Shown: one piece after another, positions 5,517 to 55,349 of the stretch
Position numbering within the stretch: position 1 is the first letter of the stretch
Layout of the letters: each line of letters opens with the position of its first letter
Origin: Microthyrium microscopicum
Taxonomy: Eukaryota > Ascomycota > Dothideomycetes > Microthyriales > Microthyriaceae
DNA: 64,000 nucleotides
Assembly: GCA_010405405.1 (NCBI GenBank)
Contig: MU004232.1
Span: 2,313,481-2,377,480 of the forward strand
Direction: 5' to 3'
Translations under genes and position numbers: made by a program
Notes under the pieces: model-generated
Database searches by the model: none
What the model saw: the letters and a program-made list of their open reading frames with translations, nothing else
Told to the model about the DNA's origin: nothing

Positions 5517-7037
5517 ATGGAAATCGACTCGGGCGTCATCGCCATCCCGGCCGCGCAGGCCAACACCATCGCCACCATCCTTTGCTGCAATTGCGGCGTC
5601 CCAATCGACGGGCAAACCGCCGCGGGGGCACTCTGTACTGAGTGCCTCAAACTCACCGTAGACGCTTCTCAAGGCATCCAGAGGGAGGTGATCCTCCACA
5701 CATGTGGGGATTGCGACCGATGGCATGCGCCGCCTACGTCGTGGTTGGTTTGCCAGCCAGAGTCAAGAGAACTGCTTGCTCTGTGCCTAAAGAGGCTGAA
5801 AGGTCTTTCCAAAGTCAGAATCATCGATGCATCATTTATCTGGACCGAACCCCATTCCCGCCGTATCAAAGTCAAAATCACAGTCCAACAAGAGGCTTTT
5901 CAAGACACTATCGTCCAGCAATCCTTCGAAGTCGAATACATCGTCCACAACCAACAATGCACCGATTGCAAAAAATCATACACACATCACACATGGCGCG
6001 CATGCGTCCAAGTCCGACAAAAAGTGCCACATAAGCGTACCTTTCTCTATCTTGAACAACTCATCCTCAAGCATGGAGCTCATTCAGACACTATCAACAT
6101 CAAGGAAGTTCATGATGGCATTGACTTCTACTTCGCCCATCGAAATCAGGCTGAAAAATTCACCGATTTCCTATCATCTGTCACACCAGTCATCACCAAG
6201 AAGAGTCAAGAATTGATCTCTCACGATGTACACACCTCCACGAAACAGTACAAATTCACCTTTTCCGCAGAAATTGTACCAATCTGCAAAGACGACCTAG
6301 TCGCACTACCTATCAAGCTCGCTAAATCAGCCGGCAATATCTCTCCACTTGTGCTCTGCTACCGCATCGGCACTTCCGTTAACGTCATGGACCCGACTAC
6401 TCTACAAACCGCCGAAATCTCATCCAAGCAATTCTGGCACACACCTTTCATGCCACTAGCAGACGTCCAAGAGCTTCAGGAATTCATTGTTCTCGACATC
6501 GAGCCAATTGGCGTATCAAAAGGCCACTCTGTCCTAGCCGATGCCACCATTTCACCTGCCTCTGACTTCAACAAAACTTACACCGTCCGCACCCATCTCG
6601 GTGCCGTTCTTCATCCAGGCGATTCTGCACTCGGCTTCCATCTCAGCGGTAGCAACTTCAACAACCCACAATTCGAAGCCCTCGAGCTGAGTAGACAATA
6701 CGCCTCCACCATTCCCGATGTTGTTCTCGTCAAGAAACACTATCAACGCAGCCAGAAGAAACGCAAGAACCGAACCTGGCGTCTTAAGCGCCTCGCTCAG
6801 GAAGAAAGTGATATGGCGCCTCGCAAACAAGAACAAGAGAAACTTGAGCGTGATTATGAGATGTTCTTACGTGATGTCGAAGAAGATACTGAGTTACGTG
6901 CCGGTCTCAATCTCTACAAGCAGCAGAGACAGCAGGATGAGATGGATCTCGAGAGCTCGATGGGCGATGATGAAGGATTGAAGGTACCATTGGAGGAGTT
7001 GATGGACGAGTTTGACGAAATGACTATCAAAGAATAG
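5517..7037 (+). CDS. NMD3: Nmd3, 60S ribosomal subunit export adaptor
   Basis: An intronless 506-aa protein of the usual Nmd3 length. Nmd3 binds the nearly mature 60S subunit and links it to Crm1 for export from the nucleus. The N-terminal zinc-binding cysteines are visible: C23-x2-C26, C40-x2-C43, C63-x2-C66, and a later CxxC plus Cys in CTDCKKSYTHHTWRAC. The beta-rich eIF5A-like and SH3-like domains follow. A basic stretch near residue 410 (KKRKNRTWRLKR) fits the nuclear localisation signal. The acidic, Leu-rich C-terminus (LKVPLEELMDEFDEM) fits a nuclear export signal. Base use shifts from C/A-rich to G-rich around 6845, near the end of the gene. Confidence 0.95.
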   Translation: MEIDSGVIAIPAAQANTIATILCCNCGVPIDGQTAAGALCTECLKLTVDASQGIQREVILHTCGDCDRWHAPPTSWLVCQPESRELLALCLKRLKGLSKVRIIDASFIWTEPHSRRIKVKITVQQEAFQDTIVQQSFEVEYIVHNQQCTDCKKSYTHHTWRACVQVRQKVPHKRTFLYLEQLILKHGAHSDTINIKEVHDGIDFYFAHRNQAEKFTDFLSSVTPVITKKSQELISHDVHTSTKQYKFTFSAEIVPICKDDLVALPIKLAKSAGNISPLVLCYRIGTSVNVMDPTTLQTAEISSKQFWHTPFMPLADVQELQEFIVLDIEPIGVSKGHSVLADATISPASDFNKTYTVRTHLGAVLHPGDSALGFHLSGSNFNNPQFEALELSRQYASTIPDVVLVKKHYQRSQKKRKNRTWRLKRLAQEESDMAPRKQEQEKLERDYEMFLRDVEEDTELRAGLNLYKQQRQQDEMDLESSMGDDEGLKVPLEELMDEFDEMTIKE

Positions 7038-7338
7038 TCGGGATTTGTTATTTTTGTACGATTATGCATTCAAAAAGGGGATCACGGATTAAGCATCATT
7101 ATGCATTAGGATTGCGAAATATCATTTCTGGCAGCATGCCAGCCTATCATCTACATTCTTTACGTTCCATATTCACTGTGCATTATACTTTTATTTTTGG
7201 AACGAAACCTTTTTCATTAGATGTTTTCTGGCTTGAAGGCCTTTTCTATCTTCTATAGCTTGCAGGCTACTTGTCTTTCTCCTCATCTCCCACCTCTCTT
7301 CCCTCCTACAGCCCTTACTTACCACACCCTATGGCCCC

Positions 7339-7506
7339 CTACTCACCGTTTAACCGCCACTTTCCGCAACGAGCAGCCTTGACGGCACGTTCTTCGTTGC
7401 GGCGAGTGGTTGAGCCCTTGATGTAAGCTTTTGCTTCGCGGCGTTTGCGGTCGCGAGTGATGATGAGGCTTTTGATTTGGCGGCCGGTTAGCTCGCTGTT
7501 GGCCAT
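7339..7506 (-). CDS. Possible small basic protein or exon, unrecognised
   Basis: A 55-codon open frame begins MANSELTGRQIKSL and is rich in Arg/Lys/Glu. The frame also extends upstream to 7653 through a low-complexity Thr/Pro/Asn stretch, so the ATG at 7506 is only my preference. A GTGAGT next to the apparent stop suggests the last exon may lie further left, towards 7290. The character resembles a small organellar ribosomal protein, but I cannot place it. It converges on Nmd3. Confidence 0.3.
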   Translation of the reverse strand: MANSELTGRQIKSLIITRDRKRREAKAYIKGSTTRRNEERAVKAARCGKWRLNGE

Positions 7507-7539
7507 GAGGCAGCTAAGGCATGAAGCGCTGTTGGCTGG

Positions 7540-8328
7540 CAGTGGATTGGTTGAAGGTTGGCTGGTAGGTTTGTGTGTTTGGCTGTTTAGGTGCTTGGGG
7601 TTGGTTGTGTTGGATTGTTGGGTTGTTTTGTGCGAGTGGTGGATGAGATGCATGGTTTGGGGATGTGAGGAGGGGTGTTATGTGTATTCTGGGCATGGTA
7701 ATAGTGTTTTTGTTTGGGGATGAGGAAAGAAATGGTGAGAGAGGGAGGCAATGGGAGTATAGGGGTTGTTGGGGGACGATGGTTTTGGTGGTGAGAAGTA
7801 TGGTATGGTCACTGAAGTTTATTTGGAGAACAAGGCAGTATTTCTGTAATATTCGAACATGAAAGAATCTGTCACTGAATTCTATCTTAATGATTTTGCG
7901 ATTTGGTATGGATCAGATGCCATTGTACAATTGATGAGTAGTATGTCAGAGACTAGCCTGAGTAGAGCCAGGCTGGTATACAGTCGCCAAATATGGAATA
8001 GACTACCAGGTAGAAATTTGATAGTTCTCTATTACTTAAATGAGTCTAAGCTGCTACAGAGTTTTTCTTAAGAATATAATGGGCTATTACTGCTCTTTTT
8101 CGTAAAGACATTTGGGTACTATGTACCAATACATCCTATGTTTGAATATTTACCTCCTGATTAGGCTCAGTCTATTTCATATTCTCTAAACAAGGAACCC
8201 TTTCAATCCGTAATAAATCTGGCCAGACATTTTTATAGGAACACAGGAACCTCCTATATGACCTTTTGCTACATCCTGTTGATTACCCCCTAAACTTTCA
8301 TTAGGCTTTGGCCCAAAACTAACAAAGC
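7540..8328. other. Intergenic, no supported gene
   Basis: G/T-rich DNA to about 7800 is followed by AT-rich DNA. The ORFs are short and frame-scattered. I see no repeat, RNA gene or recognisable coding region. Confidence 0.5.
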
Positions 8329-9531
8329 CTACCACGCACAGCCACCATACGAGACATACGATGGACGCTCACAATGAAGATTCTTAGTAGCAGCGGTACA
8401 GGGCTGTAGGAATCTCGCCTCATTCATCTGCAATCTCTCTTCCAGCACTTCCTCCTCCTGAAGTCGTTTATTCTTCTCTAGGATGGCTTTGAACTCTGCA
8501 AAATAAGCCTTCGTCTGATCAATCGCTTCCACAGCTTGCTCTCCCACTATCTCAACAACTTTCTCTGGTTCCGGGCTACTCGTCCTAGACCGATCAGGTG
8601 TTTCACTCCATTCACTATTATGAGCAGAGTCAGTCGCGTCCCATCGCGTCTTTCGTCTTCGTAGTGCCAAATCATCCACTATACATTTGCGTCGCTGTTC
8701 TTTGAGATGTGCAAAATGCTCACTGACCAACTCATCGCGCAAATCACGTTGCAAACGGGCTTTCCCGGCAGCTCGTTCGGCTAAGAAGGAATCTCGCCAG
8801 TTACACACGCGATCGAGATCATCAAGGCTGTGATCATCCGAGGTGATGCGTCTGCGCTTAGATGTGAACGAGCTGTGGATGCGTTTGATGGTAGAACGGA
8901 GGGTATCTGTTATGTGCCGAACGGGGATAATGTGAGAGAGAAGGACAACTATGGAGGATATGATCGGGATTGGAGTCGCGTCAAGGATGAATATTGCAGT
9001 GGATGTAATAGGAGCAAGGATCCACTGCCAGTTGGTCGGAATCCAGACAATGTCTTTTGGAGATGATGGGGAGTTGTTTGAGGCTTGGGGGCGTGATGAA
9101 GTGGTTACGGTCCAGTCAGTGTCGGTATCATCATCGCTTGTTGGTGGTGAAGATTCTTTGAAAGGGTTCCTGGAGAATAAAGACGACTTCACAAGGGGCT
9201 CTTGAGCTAAAGTCGGCAACTTCGACTCCGAGCTGTTGGAACGAGCATTTTTGGCAGATTTTGCTTGAAGACGTTCAGTATGCTTGAGCCATGCTAAACC
9301 AAGAACTCCAACAACTGCTACACCAGCGACGACTTTGCCTTTAGAAGCCAGTAACTTGTCTATAAGGCTAGGAGAAGGCAGAGCTTTGGGTGCGCAAGGA
9401 AATGCGCATTGAGATGGGCGAAGCCGCCAGTTAGCCAAGTTCACTGAAGTAGTACACGGCTTCCGCATAGATGTAAGCTGAGATAGCTGCACAAATGGTG
9501 TTGAAGGCATAGTGATGGCGGTTCGTATCAC
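8329..9531 (-). CDS. Putative mitochondrial membrane protein, unrecognised
   Basis: A 400-aa single-exon protein. The N-terminal 45 residues are Arg/Ser/Thr-rich and nearly free of acidic residues, as in a mitochondrial presequence. A hydrophobic segment (VVAGVAVVGVLGLAWL) follows near residue 70. A longer hydrophobic hairpin lies near 175-210 (APITSTAIFILDATP then IISSIVVLLSHIIPV). The C-terminal half is charged, with a predicted coiled coil around FAEFKAILEKNKRLQEEEVL. A second Met at residue 8 is an alternative start. No family is recognised. Base use switches from C-rich to G-rich on the + strand near 8825, inside the gene. Confidence 0.7.
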   Translation of the reverse strand: MIRTAITMPSTPFVQLSQLTSMRKPCTTSVNLANWRLRPSQCAFPCAPKALPSPSLIDKLLASKGKVVAGVAVVGVLGLAWLKHTERLQAKSAKNARSNSSESKLPTLAQEPLVKSSLFSRNPFKESSPPTSDDDTDTDWTVTTSSRPQASNNSPSSPKDIVWIPTNWQWILAPITSTAIFILDATPIPIISSIVVLLSHIIPVRHITDTLRSTIKRIHSSFTSKRRRITSDDHSLDDLDRVCNWRDSFLAERAAGKARLQRDLRDELVSEHFAHLKEQRRKCIVDDLALRRRKTRWDATDSAHNSEWSETPDRSRTSSPEPEKVVEIVGEQAVEAIDQTKAYFAEFKAILEKNKRLQEEEVLEERLQMNEARFLQPCTAATKNLHCERPSYVSYGGCAW

Positions 9532-9854
9532 AGTCTAGTTTTTGCAGTGTCAACTTTTTGTACTCTAGTCAACTCGCTGAGCTATTCTGACAGATATCCA
9601 TGAGGTAGGTATAGAATGGGAACAATGTTATTGTGTTGCAGAAATTCAAACACATTGAAAGGTAATAACGCTGCTAAGAATACAAAGAATTCACATGGTT
9701 ATCAAGTTGAAAGTGGTTGTTTGGAAATAAAGAAACTTCTATTAAGATAAGAATAGAGTCGGTGCAACAGGCACCAGTTTTCAAGATCTCTACCTTCTAT
9801 TTGTTTTGTGTTTTGCCTCTTTATAGTTCGGGCAGAACTCATCCTTGAATTGAC

Positions 9855-11235: not shown

Positions 11236-12075
11236 TCATTTCTGACCGCAGTGAGTTGGGCAGCCAAGGCAGATCGGCTTTTCGACCAGGTCGTGCTTAG
11301 CCTCTGCCACTTGAGAGCGGACATTACCGCGTGCTGCGTTCGAGCTACGAGCTCCCTTGGTGCTTGAAGTTGGCACGGTGGCTGGTCCGGCGAAGCGGGA
11401 GAATTCAAGTCCGTTGACCCGCTTAGCGGTGACTGGAGGAGCAGCAACAGCTGGAGCTTGCTGAGGAGCAGCTGGCTTAGTAGCTTGGGTATGCCGAGAT
11501 GGAGCGAGACCTGTTGGCTTTGGTGGCTTTGGGGCATGCTGAGATGCTACAGGAGCTTTTGGCTTGGGAGCATAACGAGAAGCTTCAAGGCCTGGTTTCG
11601 AGTCATACAGAGGTGTTGCAAGATCTGCTGGCTTTGGGGCATGCTGGGATGCTACAGGAGTTTTTGGCTTTGGAGCATTCTGAGATGCTACAGGAGCTTT
11701 TGGCTTTGGGGCATATCGAGATGCTTCAAGACCTGGTTTTGAAGCATACAGAGATGGTTCAGGACCTTTTGGCTGTGGGCCTTTTGGAGTCTTTGAAGCT
11801 GGCTCAACGAAGGCTTGTACGGTTTCCGCGGGCGGAGTAGTTGTAGCATCTTTGGAGGCCGCAACATATGTGGGCTTTGATGCCAGTGGAATCTGGGGTG
11901 CTTCGTTCGCTACTGGTAGCTTTGGTGAAGTGGTATGTGCAGCAACAGAGCTTGGTTGGGCCTGAGTAGGCGGAGGAGTTAGAGTAGTCGGAGCATATCT
12001 GGAAGACTCAAGTCCTTTGAGGTTAGGAGCCATTGGGTTGGCAGTTTTCGACTTTTGAATTATGTAGCTTTCCAC
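11236..12075 (-). CDS. Pro/Ala-rich repeat protein with GLExSRYA motifs
   Basis: A 279-aa, low-complexity, probably disordered protein. The middle (about residues 110-190) is built of repeats such as GLEASRYAPKPKAPVASQ followed by APKP. The short motif G-L-E-x-S-R-[YF]-A occurs near the N-terminus (GLESSRYAP), twice in the repeats, and again near residue 220 (GLEFSRFA). Looser copies are GPEPSLYA and GLAPSRHT. The C-terminus has CLGCPTHCGQK. No catalytic domain is present. The recurring motif looks like a short linear binding motif, which is my inference. It lies between two single-pass membrane proteins on the same strand. Confidence 0.6.
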   Translation of the reverse strand: MESYIIQKSKTANPMAPNLKGLESSRYAPTTLTPPPTQAQPSSVAAHTTSPKLPVANEAPQIPLASKPTYVAASKDATTTPPAETVQAFVEPASKTPKGPQPKGPEPSLYASKPGLEASRYAPKPKAPVASQNAPKPKTPVASQHAPKPADLATPLYDSKPGLEASRYAPKPKAPVASQHAPKPPKPTGLAPSRHTQATKPAAPQQAPAVAAPPVTAKRVNGLEFSRFAGPATVPTSSTKGARSSNAARGNVRSQVAEAKHDLVEKPICLGCPTHCGQK

Positions 12076-12861
12076 TTTCGAATAGGAGATTGTGTCGCGG
12101 CGGTATTGAGTATTGGAAACAAAAATGACTTAAACCATCGTAATTGTGGTATATGTATGTTCCACAGCTCCCACGATTTTAGTGACAAAGGCATTGTCGA
12201 CAACAGGCGAAAGATTACAAAACAGAAAGAATGTATAAACAAAGAGTTTACTTTATCATTGCGAGGATTGTATTTCACAAAATCTCTAGAGAACAAGGTG
12301 ATGGCGCAGCATAAAACCCTCACTGAAATACAACATATTAGTGGATCGGACAAAGGCATATTCAGCCAATAATTTGGGAAAATGGTACTTCTTTCGAATG
12401 TGTTTAACGTCCAAGTTACGACGTTTAAAGTCCAAGCGACAAGGGGTCAAACTCTATAAACTTAAAACTGCTCTATTTATGCATTTACACACTGTTAACC
12501 TCACCACTCGAGGTCTTTGGCAATTTGACCGGACCACGCCGACTTTTTGCTACAGGCCTGACAGCTGGACTTTTGGTTTTTAGGTACGCGAGATGGCGAT
12601 GTTGGACGATCGGCTTCACTCAGGACGAACAGCTGGGAATCAACATAAATCGAACGCGAATTCAGTTTGATTATTCAAGCAAAATGGATTGAGGTACCAA
12701 AACTTTACTAATCCACTGTAAAGTATTGGATCGAGATAGGCAGTCCGAGATGGAAAGTTGTTAGACGCAATTATAATTGTATTGGTGCAAGAGACGTGGC
12801 TAAAGATAAGCTGATGATAACCTAAAAGTTCCTGGACGAGGAGACGATCTATAAATTGAGC
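12076..12861. other. Intergenic, no supported gene
   Basis: Overlapping ORFs on both strands at 12055-12372 have no recognisable domain and look like chance. The stretch probably holds the promoter of the repeat protein. Confidence 0.45.
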
Positions 12862-13691: not shown

Positions 13692-16180
13692 TCAACCATC
13701 CAAAGCCTTCAGCAACTCATTCAGCACAGCATCCGTGGTTCTCTTCGACACCACCAATCCACTCATGAAGTACATGACATTTCCAAGCACTCTGGAATGA
13801 ATCATCCAGCCTTTTTCTCCGACCTGGGCTAGTTGGGCCTGTACTCCGGCTGCCGCTGTGCTGTTATATCCGCCCTTGCCAGCTTCCGCCTTCAAGGTCA
13901 CCGCTAACACCGTGCCAAGCGCTATGACACCCTCAACTCGTTTATGTGCTGCGACTTTCCCCACTAAATCGTCTTCCCAGACACACCATAGCTGATCATT
14001 TTCGCTAGCTGCGTATTGAGCCCAGGGCTTCTTTTGCATAGTCTCCAGAGACGTAATCGCAACCTGGCATCCAACTGCGTGTGCGGTATAGCTATGCCCA
14101 TGGAGCAGTGCGCTAGTTTTATCTTCTCCTTCGAAGGATTTGAATATGGACTGGCCAGCCATCGTGGTACAAAGCGGGAGTAACCCACCAGTAAGCAATT
14201 TCGCGTTGACGACTATGTCCGGCATGACATGGGTCAAGTCATTGGTGTTAAATGGTCCCAGGCGATGTAGACCGGCGAACACCTCATCGTGGATGACGGG
14301 GACTCCAGACCATTCTTTTGAACCAGTAGTTCTAGGTGCAGCGGAATTGACGAGCTCCGGTTCGTTGCGGACAAGGTTGACTAAGGCGGCGTGGAAGACA
14401 GGATCCACGAATATCATACCACCAGCACCGAGAAGGATAGGCTCGAGCAGCAGGGCACCGAATTTGGTGCCTTCTGCATTAAGTCTTTTGAGAGTGTCGC
14501 GGATGTATGAAGTGTATTGTTCGTACAGGGTGCTCGAAAATCGCTCTTTCTGGAATATTTCCGGTAGAGCTCTAGCAAAGCCTTTGGTGGCATACGCCTC
14601 TGTTTCAGAGGTCAAGTAAGACTTGAGCTCAGATGGAAATGTAATTGTGTACTTTTGAGGTCCTGTCATGTGAATCTGAGGCGTTGGGAACCAGACTAGA
14701 GGAAATTAGCGACAGTGTTAATGAGTTGACTGACATGATACTTACAACCCTTTGGCCTGTACCATTCCACTTTATCGTTGTATATCGATGGTTCGGAACT
14801 ATCCATGACTCCCATGGTATCACCATGATAGCTTCCTTGAAGGCCCAAAACCTTTACATCGTCTGTTTTATGGTTCCAGCCGTATCTATCACAAGACGCT
14901 CGAAGGGCCATCTTCAAAGCGACTTCCATACCAGTGCTACCATTATCCGAGAAAAATACTCGATCTAATCGTGAGTTGTTGTGTCCTTCAAGTAGTGCTT
15001 CTGTAATCTTAAGAGCCGGCTCATGAATGGCGCCTGCAAACATGACGTGCCCATATCTTCCAGCCGCATATGCTGCTGCGAGTGATAATTCCGGATTCCC
15101 GTGTCCTAGACCTTGAGTCCACCATGAAGCGGATCCATCAACAGCGGCACGCAGAAGAGATTCGGATTTAGACTTTTCGTTCTTCACAAGAGTATCAAAG
15201 TTGTTCTTATACGCAGAGTCAATGACCAAGATATCCTTAGGCTTCAGGTTGGAATGTTGAGTGAATGGATACCAGATCTGCTTGTGTGCGCGTTCAGCCA
15301 TGGAGTCTAGTTCAGTGATTCGATTAGTATGGCCCGACTTGAGCTTATCGAGCACTTTATAGACCATGTCCAGGGATGTAACTTCGGAATAATAGTTCCA
15401 CATATTTTCCATATCCTCTTCTGGGTTCTTCTTGGGTGCAGGCGGTTTGGGCAAAGCCAGTGTTGGAACACCTCGTTCGTCGAAATAGCTTTCCAAATAT
15501 TTGACATTCTGATACTCGTCCTCTTCGAAAATAAGATGAAGAAGTACATCGTATCCGCGAAGTTTCAGAGACTCATATCCCGAGATGGTCGATCCGATAC
15601 CCCCTAAGTGAAAGTCTCCCACGAATAAAACTGGTAGCCGCAATGGACGGTACAGGTCGGCCTGTAAATTGCCTGATGGCGCAGGAGAGAGTACACCGCC
15701 AGCTGTTTCCACGATGGAGACATCGTCTCCTCGCTTAGCACTTTGTAATAGGCGATCATATGTCTTTTCTAGAATTTCAAAGTCTTCCGGGACCTGCAAA
15801 GCATTAGAATGGTGTTTCGATAGGACATAGTCACATACATGGCCTTCAAATCTCGCCGCCAAGTGAGGACTTATGGGCTTTGAAAATTGGAAGATAGTTT
15901 CTGTATTAACACCATCTATAAATTTCGAAATATGACTACGTCACAAATCAGTACCAATGCACTTTGTATGAGACGATGGAAGAAAAGTAACATACCGCCC
16001 ATCAGCATGTTCAATGGCTCCCGTAGACACTGGCTTCAGGTAATTGACCTTTGCTTTTTGTCTCTCGCGAAACGCTTTGCAGAGAATAGTGCTGACAATG
16101 GTCTTGCCCACATTAGTATTGGCACCATAAACCTGAAAGGTCTGCAGGGTCGGCCAAAGCGTCGCTCCAATTCGCTGCAT
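13692..16180 (-). CDS. bioDA: Bifunctional dethiobiotin synthetase / DAPA aminotransferase (BioDA)
   Basis: Four exons give 777 aa: 16180-15996, 15935-15839, 15793-14746 and 14695-13692. The introns are 60, 45 and 50 bp. Intron 2 (45 bp) has no stop in frame and would be read through by a simple ORF caller. The N-terminal third is dethiobiotin synthetase (BioD) with the P-loop GANTNVGKT at 19-27 and an ETAGGVLSP motif. The rest is the PLP-dependent 7,8-diaminopelargonate aminotransferase (BioA), with GSASWWTQGLGHGNPEL, Asp in IHDEVF (about 580) and the PLP lysine in NAKLLTGG (about 609). The fused enzyme makes DAPA from KAPA, then dethiobiotin, in mitochondria of plants and probably of fungi. 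BioB and BioF lie about 15.6 kb away. Confidence 0.95.
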
Positions 16181-36243: not shown

Positions 36244-36343
36244 TTTGAAGGTTGGAAAAGAGTGTTGATTGGAAGAAGGACTGTTTGAGTTTGGAAAGCT
36301 GGTGAGTTGATGGAAAGAAATCTAGAGAGCAGGAATCAGGGGC

Positions 36344-36350
36344 TTATATA
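36344..36350 (-). promoter_or_regulatory. TATA box of the secreted repeat protein
   Basis: TATATAA on the minus strand (in GTATATAAGCC) lies about 100 bp upstream of the ATG at 36243. The same GTATATAAGC context occurs upstream of the secreted peptide at 61958-62233. Confidence 0.55.
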
Positions 36351-39418: not shown

Positions 39419-39811
39419 GCGAGGAGCCTCAACGGAAGATATGAGCTTGATTGAGAGACAATAACATGTAATTTAGAGTCAAGGATACTTGGAAGTATTG
39501 CCAGTAAAAGTAAAAGATCGAGGTCACATATGTGCTTATGGTTTTGCGTTGGCCAGTCTTGCCAGGGGACACTTTTTAGAGTGGATGAATAAGCCCGAGA
39601 AGAAGCAGAAAGAACATAAAATTAAAACTCTACACATTCACTGCCAGTAACCGTTGAAGTTTTTGAGCCCTTTGGCATGCAGACATAAGGCTGAATATCT
39701 CAGCCTTGCGCTTAGATTGGTCGGTGCTTTTAACCAATCAGGCTCCTGGAACTGCAGGTCGCCCCGCGCACCAAAAATCTGTTTGCTTGCCAGAGATGAA
39801 TTGAGTCACCA

Positions 39812-41814: not shown

Positions 41815-44109
41815 ATGGCTAATCACTACGACTATTTTCGTAATTCTTCCTGGCGGGACATTCTGCGTCCAATACGCGATGGCCTTGACAATATAAGAGA
41901 ACGAATCCCTGACCTTCGTCCATATGACCCAACTGAGGACAACTTGAGAAAACGCAAGCGCCAGGATGACGCTCTCCAAGGCTTTGCCTACATAGAGTCA
42001 TTTGACGATCTTCTCTCTTGGAGACCAGAACATGCGGATCCCATTCAGAAAAGCAGCACTCCACTACTACAGCGCACTGCATCTCTGAACCCTACGAAGG
42101 ACCAGCCTCCAGGAGCGAAGGTACTTGTTTGTCACGACTGTAGCGGCGGCTATCATCCATACGAGGCAGTAGTACTCAATCAAATTGAACATGAAGATTT
42201 CTCCCTGGAATATCTGCAGTTTGTAGAGACCTTCGTTTACTTTTCCCACCGGCTGGTCACAATCCCCCCTCCCAGCTGGACTAACACATTACATCTAAAT
42301 GGAGTTCTGTCGCTTGGCACCTTCATCGTGGAGCCAGGTACAAAGCGCGCCGAAGAGATATTCCATTATACGACCAACTCGGACAGCACCAAATATTTTC
42401 CCGTTGCAGAACAGTTAGCAGCTATTGCTGAAGCTTATGGCTTTGATGGATGGCTCATCAACATTGAAAAGACATTTACGCAGAACTCATGGGACCTTGA
42501 TGCTATGATAGGCTTCCTCAAGGCCTTGCGAGGCAAGATGGGCCCAACTCGAAAGCTAGTATGGTATGACTCTTTAACCGTGGGCGGAAGAGTACGATAT
42601 CAAAATGCTTTGACGTACTCGAATTTACCTTTCTTCGAGACATGTGGCAACATCCTCACCAACTATGCGTGGGAACCCTCCATGATCGAGATGTCCAAAG
42701 CTGTGGCTAAGAACAGTGGCGTGTCTGTGGCCAACATCTACTTTGGTGTGGATGTATGGGCCCAAAACAAGCCAGTGGATAAATACCATCCTCGTGTCAG
42801 CTTTCCTCAGAATAGAGGAGGAGGAGGTACTAACACTGGCGTTGCAGTCAGTGAGTGTCGCAATCAAGGCGTCAGTTCTGGTATCTTTGCTCCAGCTTGG
42901 GCATATGAACACTTCAAGTTGCCCGAAGATGGTCCTACGGTCTCTCGTTGTATGTGGGAAGGAGAACCTCTACCAAAAGAAGTCGAATGCGAATGCTATG
43001 GTGGTAGACCAAATGCAGCAATGTGCCACTTTACGCATCGAACAGATGCTTCCATCACAAGATCGGCTCTGGAATATCCTGCTGGTTCCGAAGACTTCTT
43101 CTGGACCGACTTTTGCAAAGCTTTCAGCCAACGGACAATACGCCCAGACTCAAGCTCGGCAAGAACTGAAATTAACGCCCACCTAGGATCTCAGAGCGTA
43201 CTCCCACGGCAATGGCGCGCCAAAAACGAATGGCGACATCGCCAGCTTACGATGAAACTGATAGGACACAATCCATCTCGAGCAGTGATCGGTCTTCCCA
43301 GGTCTGATAACGTCACCGAGACCATTAACCGAATGGAGCTCTTCGCCTTGCGCCTGCGAATACCGCACAAGAAGGAGCATAAACAACTTCAAATCACCAT
43401 CCACTACAATATTTGCCAACTTGGTCATCGAGTCAATCTTATAATTCACAAATCAAATGGCGAATCACCCATCACCCAAACCCTTCCCAGCGATCAGGAA
43501 TCCACCACCATCGTACTCATAGGTGGCCCGCCACACTCCAATAACGACGAACAAGAATACGTCACTAGTATTGGCATTGCAACTCAAGGTGGCCACCAGT
43601 CGATCACCTTCCCCCCCTCACAAGGCCCACGTCTTAATCCAGAGCCGATCGTAGAAATCACCAATATCCGCGCCTGCCACACCACCACTGAGCCCGACGA
43701 CGGTGAAACCGTCGATATCTGTCTTGACGACGATGACTCCCCACCAAAAGCCCTCTCCATCCAAATTCAAAATGTTCCAGAAACACCATACATGTCCCAG
43801 CACATCCGTGTATCATGGGAGCTGAATAATACTGCACTCAACGGCCCAGATGATGGACTACTTGTTCCTCGATCGAAACTCACTGGCCAGATGGCGTATT
43901 TCAATGTCTGGATTGACGATGAGTTTCTGACTCGGGTTTATGGCTTGGAGATGGTGCTGCCTAGAGGCTATATTGAGCGGTGGCAGTCGTATAAAGGGAT
44001 CAGAGTGCGAGTAGATTGTGTAAGATTTGGTGGGGAGGTTTGGGAGGGAAGCTGGTTTGCGTTGACGGCGGCGGATGCGGAGTGGGTTGTTGTCGACGGT
44101 GATGTTTAG
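41815..44109 (+). CDS. Cytosolic endo-beta-N-acetylglucosaminidase, GH85 (ENGase)
   Basis: A single-exon 764-aa protein. GH85 enzymes cut between the two core GlcNAc residues of N-glycans; eukaryotic ones act on free or misfolded-protein glycans in the cytosol. The catalytic part spans roughly residues 60-400, with LVCHDCSGGYHPYE, NGVLSLGTFIVE, and the substrate-assisted pair in GWLINIEKTF (N216 and E218). FFETCGNILTNYAWEPSMI and the later SSGIFAPAWAYEHFK fit the barrel. The C-terminal half is beta-sandwich-like. There is no signal peptide, supporting a cytosolic place. Base use turns from C-rich to G-rich near 43900. Confidence 0.92.
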   Translation: MANHYDYFRNSSWRDILRPIRDGLDNIRERIPDLRPYDPTEDNLRKRKRQDDALQGFAYIESFDDLLSWRPEHADPIQKSSTPLLQRTASLNPTKDQPPGAKVLVCHDCSGGYHPYEAVVLNQIEHEDFSLEYLQFVETFVYFSHRLVTIPPPSWTNTLHLNGVLSLGTFIVEPGTKRAEEIFHYTTNSDSTKYFPVAEQLAAIAEAYGFDGWLINIEKTFTQNSWDLDAMIGFLKALRGKMGPTRKLVWYDSLTVGGRVRYQNALTYSNLPFFETCGNILTNYAWEPSMIEMSKAVAKNSGVSVANIYFGVDVWAQNKPVDKYHPRVSFPQNRGGGGTNTGVAVSECRNQGVSSGIFAPAWAYEHFKLPEDGPTVSRCMWEGEPLPKEVECECYGGRPNAAMCHFTHRTDASITRSALEYPAGSEDFFWTDFCKAFSQRTIRPDSSSARTEINAHLGSQSVLPRQWRAKNEWRHRQLTMKLIGHNPSRAVIGLPRSDNVTETINRMELFALRLRIPHKKEHKQLQITIHYNICQLGHRVNLIIHKSNGESPITQTLPSDQESTTIVLIGGPPHSNNDEQEYVTSIGIATQGGHQSITFPPSQGPRLNPEPIVEITNIRACHTTTEPDDGETVDICLDDDDSPPKALSIQIQNVPETPYMSQHIRVSWELNNTALNGPDDGLLVPRSKLTGQMAYFNVWIDDEFLTRVYGLEMVLPRGYIERWQSYKGIRVRVDCVRFGGEVWEGSWFALTAADAEWVVVDGDV

Positions 44110-44330
44110 ATGGAATCATTGCGGTCTGTCAGCATGGTTCTATTTCGGGCTATGAGCCGGGATACCGGTGCCCATATCCATGAGTGATATGGTTTCTACT
44201 GAATCTTGAGCCTATTGAAGTAGTTGTCAAAGTCAACTTTCAAATCTGTTCATGTTCATTGCTGATATCGGTCGTTGAGTCTTTGAGAGCTACTAACGAG
44301 CAACCTAGAGTAGAAACTACTTCCTTTTCA

Positions 44331-46067: not shown

Positions 46068-46161
46068 TACCTCTTAAGGCCCTCGATGTCTCATTGCCGC
46101 GCTCATCCTGTATCCATCGGCAAGATCTACCAAAAGCCTAAAGAGTTCTCCGTAGATAGAC

Positions 46162-48197
46162 TTATCCTACACGACTGAATTTCACGATCAATTTTCCGCC
46201 AACTGGTCCCGCTATTACCGCATTTTCTGATTGCTGGATGTCATCATCATCAACTATCGTGATTTTGAAGTTCGTATAGATAGCTGCCAATAACAGCTTC
46301 AAGACTGCCAATGTGTTAGCAAGGTGAAGGAAAATGAGCCCGGTAATCTAACTCTTTGGGGACAAAATAAGTGAGCCGTTTCGACGACTATTCCTATGTA
46401 TTACGATGGCCGCCCTAATATTCATTCAAGAGTGACTACTTTGTTTACCAACGAAGTCTATAATATAAGTTTTACGACGCTGATAGGGATTGTAGCAGTC
46501 ACTCTTCAAGAAGTATTATGGCAGCCATAGTAATAGATGGGAACTCGTACCAGACGGCTCACTTATTTTGTCCTTGAGGAGTCTACTTACTCAACACCAT
46601 AAGGTGATTTCCAATACACATTCTACTCCCACTGCCAAATGTCCAGAACCACCGACGAGGATTAGATTCCGCATCCTGCTTCTCCATGTTACCTGAAATT
46701 TGTTAGTACAGGATTACGCTCAAAGCTCACACCGTGAAACACCCATCGCATTCTGTGCAATCCACAGCATTCGATTAAGAACGCATTCTATGGTAGGCAT
46801 TGGGTACGATGTGAGATATGGTCATTTTCGTTCCAATGGATGTCGTCGTCAAGAGATGTGCTTTGACATGGGAAAATCTCACCCCCAGCTTTACCATCCT
46901 GAGTATCCTCAGCGCACCTCCACCTCTCTGGCTTCCACTCTTCTGGTTCTGAAAACGCAGCGCTGTTGCGATTCAGACAATGTGACGATGAATGGATCGT
47001 TACACCAGGCGGTATGAAGTAGTTGTCAATAGTCGCTCCTCCTTCAGGCACTACGCGGCGTAGAGGAACTTGGGTGGTAGGATATAGACGTAATGTTTCG
47101 GTCAGTATTGCGTCTAGGAGAGGTAGTTTGTCAAGCCCTCGCAATATCGACTCTGACACTTCCTTTGAACCAGCAGGATAAATCAAAGGCGGTTCTAACG
47201 TCATCAGCTCTTTACGCAAAGCTGCTTCAAGCAGTGGTTGCTTTGACAGCTCGTGTATGGCGTAAGTCAGGGTAATCGCGCTGCCTTCTCTACCAGCGTC
47301 CAAATTATCAAGAAATTCTGAAGCGATGTGATGAAGTAGTTCTTCTTGGTCTGTGATTCCTTCTTTGCTTGGGATCAGCTCCCTCATTTGAGCGAAAACA
47401 ACTGGATGTGAGCTGGTTTCAACTTCGTTCGACCCAGAGGCAGCTTTCTCCATGGATCTCTTTGCCCTCTTACACATCTGGAGAACTTCCTCTTCTGATT
47501 CCTCGACAGCCAATTTGATATCATCTGTTATCTTAGCACCCATAAGCGGACTCAGCTTCTTCTTCGCATTCTCCAGATACTTCCTTTGCACCAATTCCTT
47601 TCCCTTCCCAAGCAAATTAAAACCATTCTGAACACCAACCATATAAGCACTCAGAAACTCAACTCCCGCCGCCGCACCAAGATTCAAAACATTAACCTCC
47701 TCTCTACTTCTCGTCACACTATCCAGATATGGGAAGAACCTCTCAAACAACAACACGCCAGCCAAAATCCGAAAATCCTCAGACCCTAGGATATACGACT
47801 TCGTGTAAACAGGAGCCAGAATTCTCTTTCTCACAGAATGTTCCTTCTTGACAAGCATCGAGCTCAAGTTCGGCACCTCACCAAACGCACGAACCTGCAA
47901 AAACCACTCATGGCGATCCCAGCTCCCAGCATAGATCTTGCGTAGGCCGTCGAGTGAGTTCACTGATACTTCATTGGGTCCTAGGCGTACCACTGGGCCA
48001 AGCTGTTGGTGGGCTTTGTGGATGGTGCGAACTTCGTGGCCTTGGCGTCGTTTCCATGTTATCCAGAGAGAGGAAATGGAGGAGGTGGGGTGTGCGAAGG
48101 GGACTTTGGAGAAGGGGGTGAAGAATGCTGGGTGGAGGATGTAGGTGTAGAGAAGGGAGAGGAAGATTGTGACTGTGAGGATGATAATAACACTCAT
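46162..48197 (-). CDS. Cytochrome P450 with a MITE in its last intron
   Basis: Three exons (48197-46895, 46692-46591 and 46304-46162) give 515 aa in one frame. The N-terminal anchor is VIIILTVTIFLSLLYTYIL. The I-helix region is LDNLDAGREGS, the K-helix ExxR is in ETLRLYP, and the heme-binding motif FGSGSRMCIG (Cys about 460) is split off in the short second exon. Intron 1 is 202 bp with a perfect TACTAAC branch point. Intron 2 is 286 bp and contains a 216-bp MITE; without it about 70 bp remain, a normal size here. The last exon (LKLLLAAIYTNFKI to the C-terminus) is intact. The substrate is unknown; the form resembles fungal secondary-metabolism P450s. Confidence 0.88.
46359..46574. mobile_element. 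MITE copy 2, inside the P450 intron
   Basis: The left end reads GGGACAAAATAAGTGAGCC; the reverse complement of the right end reads AAGGACAAAATAAGTGAGCC. The inverted repeats continue for about 80 bp with matching CCCATCTATTAC-, GGC- and AAGAGTGACT-type blocks. The sequence is clearly related to the copy at 44331-44720. No ORF is present. It lies wholly between the splice sites of the last P450 intron, about 16 bp from the donor and about 50 bp from the acceptor. Confidence 0.85.
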
Positions 48198-49005
48198 GGT
48201 GATGGACGGGTAACACAGGGATTGGGAAAAGCAGACATAACAACCTTGGAAGAGTATGAGGATCAATAGTTTTGTTCATGTGTGATTTCTGAAAACAGGC
48301 GGACCCGATTTCAATGCCTCGAAAATAGGACAAAGTTCGTCAGATAAGAATCCAAGGTTCTCTGTGCAAATACATGTTCTTATTTGCTGGCAAGGAAACT
48401 TCATGAGGTTTAATTACCATCTGGTCAAATGTATTTCGAAACAACTTGTATGAAAAATAACTTACTTCCATAAACACGATCTGATATTGACCTACGGAGG
48501 AGTACTCTAGAGAGAACTAAACTCCAACTTCCCGCCATGAACATCGAGTTTTATCTACCACCCCAAATTGATTATCTGGAATTACCTTTTTCGCAATAAC
48601 TTCTAATACATCAATTTCGAAAGATCAAGAAAATATTGGCTACTCAAGCAATTATCACGTGCGAGGATATTTTAGCTATTTTAGGAAGCGCTAGCAAGAC
48701 CATCATTCAGCCAATCAGGGGCAAGACGCTAACGGCACCTAGTACGTCCTGCTCTGTAATATAAACTCCACGCGACCAACAGCTCCTGTCTTCAGAATCG
48801 CCATCAGGCATGCATCCTACTTCAATTCGCCTTCGTCCTTGCCTTCTGAGACCATGAAACTCCGCTTAACAGTTGCACCTCCCATACCTGCCCTCTACAC
48901 AACTGGCGCGCCGCCTCTCTCGGGAAGGTGAACCATCATCATGCCAGGCCTTCCAAGTAAATCCGTCTCCCAATGCCCTCCAAAGATAAATCCGACTAAC
49001 CAGAC
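48198..49005. other. Shared promoter region of P450 and Ppg1
   Basis: Divergent intergenic DNA, AT-rich in the middle, with a CCAAT box at 48711-48715. An ATG at 48941 could join the phosphatase ORF in frame through a 47-bp intron-like segment ending in CTAACCAG; I treat that as an alternative start. Confidence 0.5.
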
Positions 49006-49962
49006 ATGCTCCGCTCCACAGCCTCCATCGATCTCGACGAATGCATATCCCGTCTCTACAACAAAGAGCTCCTCGCCGACTCCGTCGTCGAAGCCATCTG
49101 CGCCAAAACCAAAGAACTCCTCATGAAAGAGTCCAACGTCGTGCACATCGCCGCCCCCGTAACAGTCGTCGGCGACATACACGGCCAATTCTTCGACATG
49201 ATTGAAATTTTCCGCATCGGCGGCTTTTGTCCCAACACAAACTACCTCTTTCTCGGCGACTATGTAGACCGCGGGCTCTTTAGCGTCGAAACCATCTCCC
49301 TCCTCGTTTGCCTCAAACTACGATATCCGAGCCGTGTACATTTGATACGAGGCAACCATGAGAGTAGGGGCGTGACGCAGAGCTATGGGTTTTATACGGA
49401 ATGTTCGAGAAAGTACGGCAATGCTAATGTCTGGCATTACTTTACGGACATGTTTGATTATTTGACGCTGAGTGTGGTGATTGATGATAAGATTTTCTGT
49501 GTGCATGGGGGTCTGAGTCCGAGTATACACAGCATTGATCAGATCAAGATCATTGATCGGTTTCGCGAAATTCCACACGAAGGCCCGATGGCTGATTTGG
49601 TCTGGAGTGATCCGGATGCGGAGAGGGATGAGTTCAGTCTGAGTCCACGGGGCGCGGGATATACGTTTGGGGCACAGGTGGTCAAGAAGTTTTTGGAGGT
49701 TAATAATATGAATCACATATTACGGGCTCATCAGCTGTGTCAGGAGGGATATCAGGTGCTTTACGACGATCGGCTGAGCACGGTGTGGAGTGCGCCGAAT
49801 TACTGTTACAGGTGTGGAAATATGGCGAGTGTGCTTGAAGTCAGTGATACGGGAGAGCGGTTCTTCAATGTGTTCGATGCGGCGCCGGAAAATGATGCGC
49901 ATCGACAGGAGCAACAAGCTCAGCAGGGCAAGGATGGGGTGGTGACGGAATACTTCTTATGA
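49006..49962 (+). CDS. ppg1: PP2A-like serine/threonine phosphatase Ppg1
   Basis: A 318-aa catalytic subunit of the PPP family with all metal-binding signatures: GDIHGQF, GDYVDRG, and GNHESR, then the HGG motif in CVHGGLSP. The sequences TQSYGFYTEC, RAHQLCQEGYQ and APNYCYRCGN match Ppg1 of budding yeast better than Sit4 or Pph21. It ends in YFL, the tail that is carboxymethylated in PP2A-type enzymes. Yeast Ppg1 works with the Far complex, for example in mitophagy control. Synonymous base choice flips sharply from C to G/T at about 49322. Confidence 0.93.
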   Translation: MLRSTASIDLDECISRLYNKELLADSVVEAICAKTKELLMKESNVVHIAAPVTVVGDIHGQFFDMIEIFRIGGFCPNTNYLFLGDYVDRGLFSVETISLLVCLKLRYPSRVHLIRGNHESRGVTQSYGFYTECSRKYGNANVWHYFTDMFDYLTLSVVIDDKIFCVHGGLSPSIHSIDQIKIIDRFREIPHEGPMADLVWSDPDAERDEFSLSPRGAGYTFGAQVVKKFLEVNNMNHILRAHQLCQEGYQVLYDDRLSTVWSAPNYCYRCGNMASVLEVSDTGERFFNVFDAAPENDAHRQEQQAQQGKDGVVTEYFL

Positions 49963-50200
49963 TGGAAGGACAAGACGCGAATGAACTGTTTGTAAATACC
50001 CTTTTTTGTTATATACCACTTTGATTGTACAATCTCACGGCATGCGAGTATTTCACGCTTTCAAGAGAGTTGGTCCCTCATCCAACTTTTGGTACAGGAC
50101 GCTCGATAAGCATGCTTCTGGTTCCGATGCAAGGGTGTACTTGTAGCATATCATAAAGTCGTGATTGTAAGTAATGGCTCAGTCCCAATGCTGCCTCCAT

Positions 50201-51930: not shown

Positions 51931-53386
51931 ATGGTCAAGCGCAGAATTCCCTCGGCGCGCAATCCTCTACTCGAGCCCGAGCATACACCTCTCTGTACGT
52001 ACTACGCGACATTATGCGCCAATTACTCATCGCGCGTTTTCATCATCGCGCCTTTGCTGATTCTCTTTAGATGAGCTACTCGTTGAAAGGCGCCGACTCG
52101 GTCAAACAGATCTCGCAGTTACGCCAGCCGTCGCTGGAACCACATCCTCCACCAAGCCTGAAGTATTGGGCATTTTCGATTACGCCCACTTGCGCGTGCC
52201 ACTCCCTCAAGACCTCAAAAAGTCGGGAATCTTTACACCTCTGAAGAATGGACAGTACCCAGAATCTTACTTTTTGATGGTACGCTTACATGCGCCGATG
52301 GATGACGGAGCTCGACTAATTATATAAATAGCGTCGCAGCAGTGATGGCTACATTAGCGCGACTGGAATGTTCAAGGCCGCCTTTCCTTGGGCATCAGTT
52401 GAAGAGGAAAAGGCAGAGCGAAAGCATCATAAGCTCCTTCCTACTGGAAACGGGGAGGAAGTAGCAGGCAACGTCTGGATCGCACCTGACACAGGTACAT
52501 CTCACATGCTCAAAATACCGAAATCGGATGCTAAACAATTTCATAGCCCTTACACTAGCTGACGAGTACGCGATTCGTCCTTGGATTATTGCTCTTTTGG
52601 ACAACGAAGATATCGAAGTTGGTTCTAAGGAAAAGATAGTAGGCACAGTTTCCGCACCACCAAACTACGAGCTGGGTATTAGCGACAAGAAACTCCTGGG
52701 AATTCCTACTCCCGACCTCGCACCAACACCAACTCGTGCTAGAGCCAAGCGTTCATCCTCTCCAACAAAAATGTCGGCGACCCCACGTAAAATCGCATCT
52801 CCAAGAAAACGTCGCGCCGCAAGCAAACAACCCGAAGACAAGGCCGAAGGTTCTCCTGCTGCTACGCGCAAAACATCCAAAGCTCTCCAAAAGGAACAGT
52901 CAAACGGCGTTTCAGACCCCAAAGACACAATTGAGGAAGAAACCTCAGGTGGCGCTGAGTCCGACAAAGTGCGCGTTGAGGTCAAGGAAACCGTCGAAAA
53001 GAAAGACGATAAGGAAATCACGCACACCACAGTAACCGTCGCCATGCCCGCCGACCACCCAGATCTCCCGCTTCCAGAAGATACCACTGCCATGATTGAA
53101 AAAGCCAAGGAAATGGTCGAAGAAGCCAACAAGCTCGAGAAGCGCACTGGAAAAGGCACAAAGCGAAAGGCCTCGTCTAACCTCACGAAGGCAGACACAG
53201 AAGATGCTCAGCCAGAGAAGAAGGCAAAGACGGAACTTCAAGAGAAACTCATCACAGAGCGTGTCAAGACACGCGCACTCATTGGCCTCACAGCAACACT
53301 TGCAGTCGGGTATGTTGACTGCATTGCCCTTGATTTGAATCGTTCGCTAACATTTTCACAGTGCTATCATCCCCTACTTCTTGTAA
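51931..53386 (+). CDS. Bqt4-like inner nuclear membrane protein
   Basis: Five exons (51931-51994, 52071-52279, 52332-52494, 52547-53309 and 53362-53386) give 407 aa in one frame. The N-terminal part (about 35-165) is an APSES/KilA-N-type domain: [20 protein letters not shown], then [12 protein letters not shown] and the later [21 protein letters not shown] long Lys/Glu/Pro-rich disordered region with basic SPRKRRAA-type signals follows. The last 19 residues form a single transmembrane helix, completed only by the tiny fifth exon ([12 protein letters not shown] then AIIPYFL). This is the plan of fission-yeast Bqt4, which anchors telomeres to the inner nuclear membrane. Confidence 0.88.
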
Positions 53387-54341
53387 TACCCTTTTTCCAA
53401 AGCGCCATTCTAGGTCTCTGACATCTTTGTTTTTGTCGTAAACACACGCATACCCCATTTTCCTATGTCTATTACCCCCTTCTGGCTCTCGGCGTTTGAC
53501 AGGTCATTTCACACTTTCGGCGCGTATACTGGCTCAGGCGGCAAGGCGGTTTTCAACTGTCTGGAGTAGTGATTGAACAAGAGGCGTGGATCATCGGGCT
53601 TGGATCACTGGAGCCCAGGTCAATGGGCTTGGAAAGGAAGCTTCTGTGTCAAAAGATGCCCTAGCAGTCCAATTCGGGTAGCTGCAACTGTGGTTGCGGC
53701 TTTGTAGGTATTTGTTGTGCTATGCATGTATGGACGGTATTCTTGGCATCCTTGAACTGGATGGACTTTTGTAGATCTCTGTAATCAATGGTGGAGTGGG
53801 TGGCTTCACTTGAATAGACGCTGTTTTCCTTATGGGTGATTTCGTTTGTGTTTCTGGATTGATGCTGCTTGAGCGATGTGCGATTCGTTGTCTGGAGCTT
53901 CGGACTGGCAAGAGAAGGAGTGGACCTTTCGCTCCGCGCATTGTCTTGGATTTCTCATGCTTCTACCCGTTCTGCAAACGACCAAAGAAGCAAGTTCCCC
54001 ATCTTCAGGCAACCGGATTACCACTGGAGCTGTCAGAACCACTCTCGGCAAACCAAAGATATGACGATGCGGGCGTCCTCGCGTTCTCCAGCTACAGAAT
54101 TTACCTTTCTAGTAACACATATCGATCAGCCATCAGAATCAATCCTCGTCTCCCAACCGCTTCGCTTCTCGTTGAGAGAACACGCAGCTCCGCATGTATG
54201 AACCAAGACAATCCCTGTGGTTCTGCGTCCTCCCGAACTGTCTCCGCTCGTTGGCGCTGATTCTTTGTAGGAACTTTGCGACTTGCATGAGACAAACATG
54301 GCGACTCTGCTAGCAACCGCTTAGGCATCACTTGGAATAGT
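53387..54341. other. Intergenic, no supported gene
   Basis: Overlapping ORFs in all three + frames at 53832-54260 show no domain. Base composition turns G-rich at about 53490. Nothing else was seen. Confidence 0.45.
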
Positions 54342-55349
54342 TTGGACAGAGTGGCCTTTGCTGCTATGGAGTGCTATTTAGAAGACATGTTCGCCGGAAC
54401 TTGGGCTTTCGAAACAATCGCTCGACCCTTTGACTACCACCCGCACCCAGCTACACCTACAATGCCCACTCCATTCGAACAGTTCGCCATGGCCCTATTC
54501 GAAATTGGCACCGGCTTCCGCCTCCTCCTCAGCTCAAGTTTCAGCATCACCAACCTATTCTGGCACACCTTCATGGATCAGCTACAAGATGGCATCCCAA
54601 TCGCCCTAATGCTCTTCGGCCTCGTCGCCGTAGGCATCATCCCGCAATTGATCTCCAAAGACGGCAAATGGCATCCTCGTCCTCGCGTCTGGTCCCTCAT
54701 CTCCTCTGGCGTCCTCTCGTGGCTATATCAAGTATTCTTTCTCTGCCTCGGGGCTGGATGTCTGTTGCTGTTCGCCGCCTGTGCCATGAAGATGGGATCT
54801 GTACCTCAAAAGGTCGCTCGCGTCAATCCCACGGCGGAAGAACTCGGTGTGCGCGGTCTCGTCTTCTTCTGGTTCGCGATATTGTTTCAGGAGGCGGCGA
54901 GGGCGCTGAGCGCGCGCGAGGATGTTGTTGCTGACGTGCAGATATTGCGGCGTCTTGTTTTCTATGAGTGCGGACCAAGGTACTTTACTGCCGCTCGGGA
55001 GTCTTGCTACAAGTTGGCGACAAAGACTCGCAAGCAAGTCGAGCTTTGGGCGGCAGATAAGATGGCACGTCTTCGCAAGGTCATCTCTCCGCTACGACCT
55101 CAGCCTGTTACCGATGACGGCGACGCTCCAAGCACTCGCAACACGACAACTTCCCCGGAACCGGAGCGCTACACCGAAGAGGACGCTGGAATCAATGGAA
55201 AACCAACCAGCGTCTCTGACCAGGAAATTTCCGACGCGATGTCACTCAATGACTATGATGAAGAGGTTCTGTACACGCCGAGCTCTTCGAGCGATTCTAT
55301 GGATAGTGGTTCGTCCACCTATTCACTTTGCAAGGTATGGACCATATAA
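54342..55349 (+). CDS. Polytopic membrane protein, unrecognised
   Basis: A 335-aa single-exon protein. The ATG at 54366 (MECYLEDMF) is an alternative start. Hydrophobic segments lie near residues 85-110 (IALMLFGLVAVGIIPQLI), 118-152 (two segments around VWSLISSGVLSWLYQVFFL and CLGAGCLLLFAACAM) and 168-188 (VRGLVFFWFAILFQEAARAL). The C-terminal 130 residues are polar, Ser/Glu-rich and probably cytosolic. I know no family. Base use shifts from C-rich to G-rich near 54840. Confidence 0.65.
   Translation: MDRVAFAAMECYLEDMFAGTWAFETIARPFDYHPHPATPTMPTPFEQFAMALFEIGTGFRLLLSSSFSITNLFWHTFMDQLQDGIPIALMLFGLVAVGIIPQLISKDGKWHPRPRVWSLISSGVLSWLYQVFFLCLGAGCLLLFAACAMKMGSVPQKVARVNPTAEELGVRGLVFFWFAILFQEAARALSAREDVVADVQILRRLVFYECGPRYFTAARESCYKLATKTRKQVELWAADKMARLRKVISPLRPQPVTDDGDAPSTRNTTTSPEPERYTEEDAGINGKPTSVSDQEISDAMSLNDYDEEVLYTPSSSSDSMDSGSSTYSLCKVWTI

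Follow-up and report, generated by a model that had tools for sequence, protein, structure and literature searches.

Gene-anchored C-to-G strand switches in the genome of the fungus Microthyrium microscopicum

Introduction

What turns a strand of DNA from C-rich to G-rich in the middle of a gene? The question is raised by a 64-kb stretch of the genome of the dothideomycete Microthyrium microscopicum, called the window below (positions 2313481-2377480 of contig MU004232.1, C3 in our numbering), whose forward strand makes this change at ten listed places. A preliminary description, made from the letters of the window, held that the switches always run in the same direction whichever way the gene points, and traced them to a local replication start or a strand-specific repair tract. 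We examined the ten places and a sample of the rest of the genome. The pattern is real, strong, non-random and anchored to genes; it is mostly a striking version of one already published for fungi, and a replication start is a minority option for a two-armed subset of the switches.

Results

Our counts rest on 23 usable stretches at first (284 kb, window included) and on 27 after four were added (324 kb). Skew is given as GC skew, negative where C exceeds G, and a flip is called up when the strand read from left to right goes from C to G and down when it goes from G to C. Over the whole sequence the claim of a single direction does not hold, with 36 up and 35 down flips at |z|>5 in the 284 kb and 38 up and 39 down in the 324 kb. 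The strongest raw flips do favour the up direction (16 up and 5 down at |z| of at least 7, rounded values, 284 kb; 12 up and 3 down above 7 in a 259-kb count), in part because an up flip goes from full C to full G and many down flips go from a block to neutral sequence.

The two directions are separated by where they fall with respect to genes. Of flips at |z|>5 in the 284 kb, of which 48% is genic by our codon-model gene predictions, 30 of 36 up flips lie within gene models and 29 of 35 down flips lie outside them. A hidden Markov model (HMM) of skew blocks with both direct-flip rates set equal places 26 direct C-to-G switches in genes and 4 outside, against 1 G-to-C switch in genes and 19 outside (27 stretches, 324 kb; Fisher p 5e-9). 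The corresponding counts are 25 and 3 against 1 and 18 in the first 23 stretches, and 23 and 3 against 3 and 20 when the rates are left free. The 19 G-to-C switches outside genes fall in 9 divergent, 3 convergent and 3 tandem intervals, with 4 past the outermost gene of a stretch, the sample as a whole having 27 divergent, 26 convergent and 54 tandem intervals; this divergent surplus is what back-to-back C-rich 5' ends would give. Noncoding GC near these 19 switches is 0.42-0.48 against a background of 0.43 and forms no clear peak. The skew blocks are clustered, and skew-active stretches alternate with block-free ones: at the extremes, C and G blocks take up a share of 0 in stretches L024 and L027 and of 0.49 in L011.

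That the switches ignore gene direction, which codon selection would follow, had been the main argument of the preliminary description. Reverse-complemented, however, a step from C to G is again a step from C to G. It cannot reverse with gene orientation, whatever its cause; a gradient oriented along the gene looks alike on the + strand whichever strand the gene is on, and finding the step in genes of both strands is no argument against gene direction. The same caution applies elsewhere: strand switches in genes of either orientation are no evidence against a gene-oriented cause.

Along genes, the polarity is that of the coding strand. Fourfold skew by decile is -0.37 and -0.42 at the 5' end and reaches +0.03 at the 3' end (106 segments). 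In long genes (at least 1100 bp, n=31) the skew is -0.26 from -150 to 0 relative to the start, -0.27 from 0 to 150 and -0.15 from 150 to 300; interior bins lie between -0.10 and +0.01, and the last 300 bp stand at +0.08, then +0.15 in the final 150 bp. Scored by HMM state 75 bp within the ends of the coding sequence (CDS), 75 complete genes comprise 22 with C at the 5' end only, 6 with G at the 3' end only, 7 with both, 39 with neither and 1 with C at both ends; the 5' end is in the C state in 30 of 75 and never in the G state, and the 3' end is in the G state in 13 and in the C state in 1. In flanks of at most 100 bp lying outside all gene models, the same 75 genes average -0.295 (standard error 0.029) on the 5' side and +0.061 (standard error 0.029) on the 3' side. 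The two gene ends are thus unlike in their flanks, as an effect of transcription direction predicts and a direction-blind process at gene ends does not. Flips also keep close to gene ends: in 12 long genes the median flip lies 260 bp from the nearer CDS end, where uniform placement would give 439 (P 0.026). Most flipped genes below about 1.1 kb in length are shared between a C and a G block.

Within coding segments, steps at fourfold sites run 17 up and 0 down at z>4, 20 and 3 at 3.5, and 32 and 13 at 3 (115 segments, 27 stretches). The check proposed in advance, by which equal numbers of sharp fourfold flips in both directions would mean codon bias or chance, was thus not triggered. For the 103 segments in which null models were run, the count at z>4 is 13 up and 0 down. 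A pure smooth gradient is rejected, since 200 simulations from the decile gradient give on average 0.09 up and 0.06 down. Chance runs in an autocorrelated, direction-blind skew would have in their favour that residual skew is autocorrelated out to about 300 bp. A direction-blind simulation laid over the gradient (sigma 1.0, lag-1 autocorrelation 0.159, observed 0.149) yields on average 6.7 up and 4.3 down, and the observed difference between up and down was reached in 0 of 300 runs at that sigma and in 1% at sigma 1.2 (lag-1 0.212). Direction-blind autocorrelation is therefore rejected for direction within coding segments, and as an explanation of the polarity we regard it as hardly credible. 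With both nulls failing, the polarity inside genes is real, as had been claimed against chance, and we take it to reflect a 5'-C to 3'-G pattern that varies strongly from gene to gene, not a uniform gradient.

The claim that the change is largely synonymous is borne out in part: fourfold sites switch, but so do codon positions 1 and 2. In 17 flips chosen on fourfold sites alone, position 1 goes from +0.01 to +0.44 and position 2 from -0.38 to +0.08; down-steps chosen likewise (13 at z>3) show nothing comparable at these two positions. Codon choice alone is ruled out by the switches at positions 1 and 2 together with the C-rich 5' flank outside gene models, and on this point the preliminary description was right. 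Bases beyond the segment, unscreened for other genes, have the same polarity: within 300 bp the skew is -0.46 on the left and +0.38 on the right, from no more than 84 and 207 bases, and between 300 and 600 bp it is -0.28 and +0.10. The two arms of up flips have a fourfold GC of 0.66 and 0.62, compared with 0.48 at down-steps. At two-fold sites C makes up 67% in C blocks and 25% in G blocks, and G 32% and 73%, which would suit transitions on one strand but is partly circular, the blocks having been defined on the same letters.

A change within the few tens of bases first reported is not confirmed. The 38 up flips pooled fit a logistic scale of about 40 bp, or about 175 bp from 10% to 90%, which beats a scale of 1 bp by 26 log units. 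Single up flips are best fitted at 1 bp in 15 of 38 cases, and simulated broad steps (scale 160) are likewise best fitted by 1 bp; such lone fits are uninformative, and the case against gradual down flips rests on the pooled curve across all scales. On that curve the 39 down flips, which had been called gradual, favour the sharpest step, 80 and 160 bp being worse by 75 and 126 log units. Individual best fits at 80-160 bp occur in eight flips of either direction, out of 39 down and 38 up.

In the 64-kb window, GC skew in 250-bp steps already reveals the listed sites, and all ten switches are present, with z from 4.6 to 8.9 (300-bp windows, no more than 120 bp from each position). For those listed at 7400 and 54840 the best step lies 104 and 120 bp away, the second offset being the limit of the search range. 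Nine of the ten best positions lie inside gene models, the exception being the site listed at 53490. The ten switches and one skew-quiet stretch are as follows, with blocks given on the + strand.

5805-7138: nmd3 gene at 5517-7037 (+ strand), NMD3 family; C block 5805-6798, G block 6800-7138; z 5.3
7139-8123: small gene model at 7339-7653 (- strand), no Pfam family matched; C block 7139-7395, G block 7396-8123; z 8.6
8126-9182: gene model at 8329-9468 (- strand), no Pfam family matched; C block 8126-8808, G block 8809-9182; z 6.1
31611-32947: bioB at 31782-33056 (+ strand); C block 31611-32288, G block 32289-32947; z 8.0
33634-34822: bioF at 33157-34488 (- strand); C block 33634-34238, G block 34239-34822; z 8.9
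43378-44170: GH85 gene at 41815-44109 (+ strand); inner C arm 43378-43883, G block 43885-44170; z 7.0
47444-48302: P450 at 46788-48197 (- strand); C block 47444-47927, G block 47929-48302; z 7.9
48736-49992: Metallophos gene at 49006-49962 (+ strand), first named ppg1; C block 48736-49328, G block 49329-49992; z 5.3
53235-53835: weak switch near 53535, outside gene models, in a neutral HMM block; z 4.6
54366-55349: gene model (+ strand); C block 54406-54749 followed by neutral sequence, weak switch near 54720; z 4.8
34948-39805: skew-quiet example, one neutral block

The strongest of the ten is that of bioF, which has C116/G34 to its left and C52/G131 to its right. On the coding strand of this gene C excess runs from 327 bp before the ATG to +250, and an inner G arm follows that ends 477 bp before the stop. 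In nmd3 the two blocks abut at about 6799, 239 bp upstream of the gene end, and in the Metallophos gene they together span the entire gene. Protein families had been said to continue undisturbed through the switches. A single Pfam domain does span the flip in bioB (within Radical_SAM), in bioF and in the phosphatase, as in three genes elsewhere (L002, L008 and L009:451-1200); the flips of P450, GH85 and nmd3 lie outside the aligned domain. The window also holds unlisted C-to-G steps, around 3511-4655 (z 6.3 near 3821, 5.3 near 4659) and near 17180 (z 5.4, 250-bp windows).

By Pfam matches and, for bioF, the names of its protein hits, bioB and bioF, which are adjacent and convergent, belong to three likely biotin-synthesis genes within about 21 kb, at 13692-15862 (-), 31782-33056 (+) and 33157-34488 (-). 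The first carries AAA_26 and a class-III aminotransferase in two open reading frames (ORFs) parted by a likely intron, and it resembles a bioD-bioA fusion. With 60% identity, Venturia inaequalis and Tothia fuscella proteins are among the best named relatives of BioF.

Discussion

Stagonospora nodorum, Pyrenophora tritici-repentis and Leptosphaeria maculans are dothideomycetes, and work that includes them offers the closest parallels to these switches; the comparisons made here concern excerpts of the papers cited. In most surveyed fungi, S. nodorum and P. tritici-repentis being among the species surveyed, genes are biased towards C at the 5' end and towards G at the 3' end, with an intermediate stretch between; the skew reaches promoters and 3' untranslated regions (UTRs) and affects fourfold and non-degenerate positions, with a flat AT skew (McLean & Tirosh 2011, PMC3315797). 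Our genes resemble this pattern in the C bias extending into the promoter, the intermediate middle, the 3' G bias and the involvement of both fourfold and non-degenerate sites. The earlier study, in the text excerpted, works mainly with averages, which for a selected Candida albicans region are taken over a 2-kb window, whereas here single genes carry blocks of about 0.5 kb with abrupt junctions; unlike that pattern, the present one also has inner arms in some long genes, a switch of fourfold AT skew and a raised fourfold GC at the switch. In L. maculans a CG skew peak, with a C-rich coding strand, lies just upstream of the start codon (Bourras 2012, PMC3411245), and the 5' flank is C-rich here too; that paper, as excerpted, treats promoters and T-DNA insertion sites and describes no switch within genes. 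Judged by title and abstract opening, none of the matches listed from the open-licence PubMed Central (PMC) literature concerns abutting blocks or GC-rich dipoles in fungal genes.

We consider it fairly probable that each transcription unit carries its own strand asymmetry, and that this stems from mutation or repair that favours one strand according to the phase of transcription and not from codon selection. The asymmetry is anchored to genes, has a 5'/3' polarity, and is seen in the 5' flank as well as at each of the three codon positions. Its cause would be strand-biased mutation or repair tied to transcription phases, as proposed for the fungal 5'-C/3'-G skew, for which mutation during transcription phases or elongation limited by cytidine triphosphate (CTP) have been put forward (PMC3315797). 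In such a scheme the initiation side of transcription would differ from the termination side in its strand-biased mutation or repair. On average the coding strand is C-rich over the 200 bp or so that precede the ATG and the 300 bp that follow it, and G-rich over the last 300 bp or so. About half of the genes carry no detected block at either end and a minority are strongly skewed; in this minority, abutting blocks of about 0.5 kb place a C-to-G switch inside the gene and G-to-C switches between genes. From the origin first suggested for the switches we would keep strand-asymmetric mutation or repair as likely, and not a replication start for the whole pattern, the opposite switches being as common and no more gradual.

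Several observations weigh against this transcription-based account. The 3' flank signal is weak, and the four added stretches, taken by themselves, hold few direct switches and show no separation (C-to-G 1 in genes and 1 outside, G-to-C 0 and 1). The gene models come from our own codon HMM trained on long ORFs and are thus predicted genes, not transcript-based ones. Neutral blocks too are biased towards C on the coding strand at their fourfold sites (GC skew -0.248). This bias, perhaps due to codon preference, eases the calling of 5' C blocks and hampers that of 3' G blocks, the comparison of flanks being unaffected. Across strong flips fourfold AT skew falls from +0.23 to -0.21, where the published pattern is flat; over gene deciles it stays between +0.05 and -0.10. 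Fourfold GC is 0.606-0.669 within 200 bp of flips and 0.454 at 900-1000 bp (26 flips), with 0.451 in neutral blocks. Lastly, in 9 of 12 flipped complete gene models of at least 1100 bp the second block is interior, and a plain rule of C at the start and G at the end does not predict such inner arms.

These inner arms are of two kinds. In five genes (bioF, P450 and one each in L003, L030 and L022) a G arm lies just behind the 5' C block and ends more than 300 bp before the stop, by 656 bp in P450; in four (GH85 and one each in L012, L016 and L019) a C arm lies just before the 3' G block and starts more than 300 bp past the ATG, by 1563 bp in GH85. The inner arm is within a single ORF in at least four of them (bioF, P450, L003 and GH85), the remainder being possibly merged neighbours. 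Over the 31 long genes, the correlation between 5' C strength and the inner G arm is negative and not significant (rho -0.22, p 0.24; on the 3' side -0.29, p 0.11), so the case for inner arms rests on individual genes. When the 13 strongest fourfold flips are aligned, they form a two-sided dipole from -0.46 to +0.54 that fades by 600-700 bp, with GC raised at its centre. Inner arms and GC peak together make a two-armed island of about 1 kb, which is outside the averaged pattern of the literature and could come from a point source, be it an origin or a recombination site, or from overlapping sense and antisense transcription. For this subset (GC-rich, two-armed, about 1 kb long and mostly 100-500 bp inside a gene end), it is conceivable, if unlikely, that the sites are fixed intragenic point sources at which recurrent bidirectional replication initiation or recombination wrote the strand dipole. 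Were this so, a single genome would suffice to locate such sites at near-gene resolution.

Extended to the pattern at large, either kind of point source becomes quite improbable. Local replication starts inside gene bodies, where leading and lagging templates swap and an error-prone zone reaches about 0.5 kb to each side, would give the C-to-G polarity as well as an aligned dipole with a GC-raised centre. Human constitutive origins, like the switches here, show a local rise in GC and a strand bias inverting at the centre (Murat 2022, PMC9645720), and GC skew shows a general rise across yeast Mcm sites (Foss 2024). Unlike at human origins, however, the sign here goes with gene bodies, and switches of the opposite sign are just as frequent; the 5' and 3' flanks are also unlike each other. 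Direct flips inside genes number 26 in 324 kb, about one every 12 kb, and their blocks measure only about 0.5 kb; the skewed yeast Mcm sites are intergenic, and an earlier yeast report cited in the excerpt of Foss 2024 found a small effect of contrary sign. We give as little credence to stable intragenic recombination hotspots, at which break repair with strand-polar, GC-biased conversion would leave a GC-rich dipole at the break site. A fourfold-GC peak between two arms of a few hundred bp would suit such hotspots, and in another filamentous fungus, Zymoseptoria tritici, 1435 of 2578 hotspots lie in exons, where our switches too have their centres (Stukenbrock & Dutheil 2017, PMC5844332). No strand skew is described for them in the text excerpted, GC-biased conversion is extremely weak or absent, and only 149 hotspots are co-located between two species (PMC5844332); a strand dipole at hotspots was not found in the titles or abstract openings of the matches listed from the open-licence PMC literature, and the unlike flanks of the two gene ends again argue for an effect of gene direction.

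Selection on codon use or on transcript elongation, varying along the gene as with C-rich slow starts, seems to us very unlikely to have produced the pattern. It would accommodate the fourfold C bias of the neutral blocks, and a CTP-limited elongation version was offered by McLean & Tirosh (PMC3315797). In its codon-choice form it fails on the switches at positions 1 and 2 and on the C-rich 5' flank, observations that do not touch the elongation version. As excerpted, McLean & Tirosh 2011 (PMC3315797) left the cause open between mutational and adaptive origins. Strong, bounded blocks in single genes, some with inner arms and a GC peak, would make the cause testable gene by gene, as averages do not.

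Methods

The source assembly comprises 36.9 Mb in 20 contigs. Outside the window we took 24 stretches of 10 kb on contigs C1-C19, the 5.1-kb end of C20 and later four further 10-kb stretches, labelled by L numbers. L001 lies within the window and was excluded from the counts. L004 (GC 0.33), L006 (6,992 N) and L021 (GC 0.218) were excluded from the main flip, HMM and gene-geometry counts and were kept in the 259-kb count, the decile profile, the 103-segment tests, the 13-flip profile and the autocorrelated null.

Listed sites were scored by the best step z within 120 bp of each position, using 300-bp windows. The 324-kb flip count and the sharpness fits skip positions where one side holds no more than 60 G+C letters, and the fourfold step test takes 20 fourfold sites on each side within coding segments. 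Skew blocks were called with a three-state HMM on G and C letters only, of which a second version sets both direct-flip rates equal; a three-state HMM with free emissions fell into an AT-rich state and was replaced by this G/C-only model.

Additional observations

A C-rich block of more than 1 kb at 26600-27747, perhaps a long 5' UTR, lies upstream of a CP2-family transcription factor gene at 27905-29923 (+). The ORF at 11236-12075 (-) has a repeated RYAPKPKAPVASQ-type motif and lies largely within a + strand G block at 11359-12116. Outside the window, L004 (GC 0.33), L029 (0.37) and L021 (0.22, on the 15-kb contig C20) are AT-rich stretches, possibly repeat-mutated regions and an organelle fragment.

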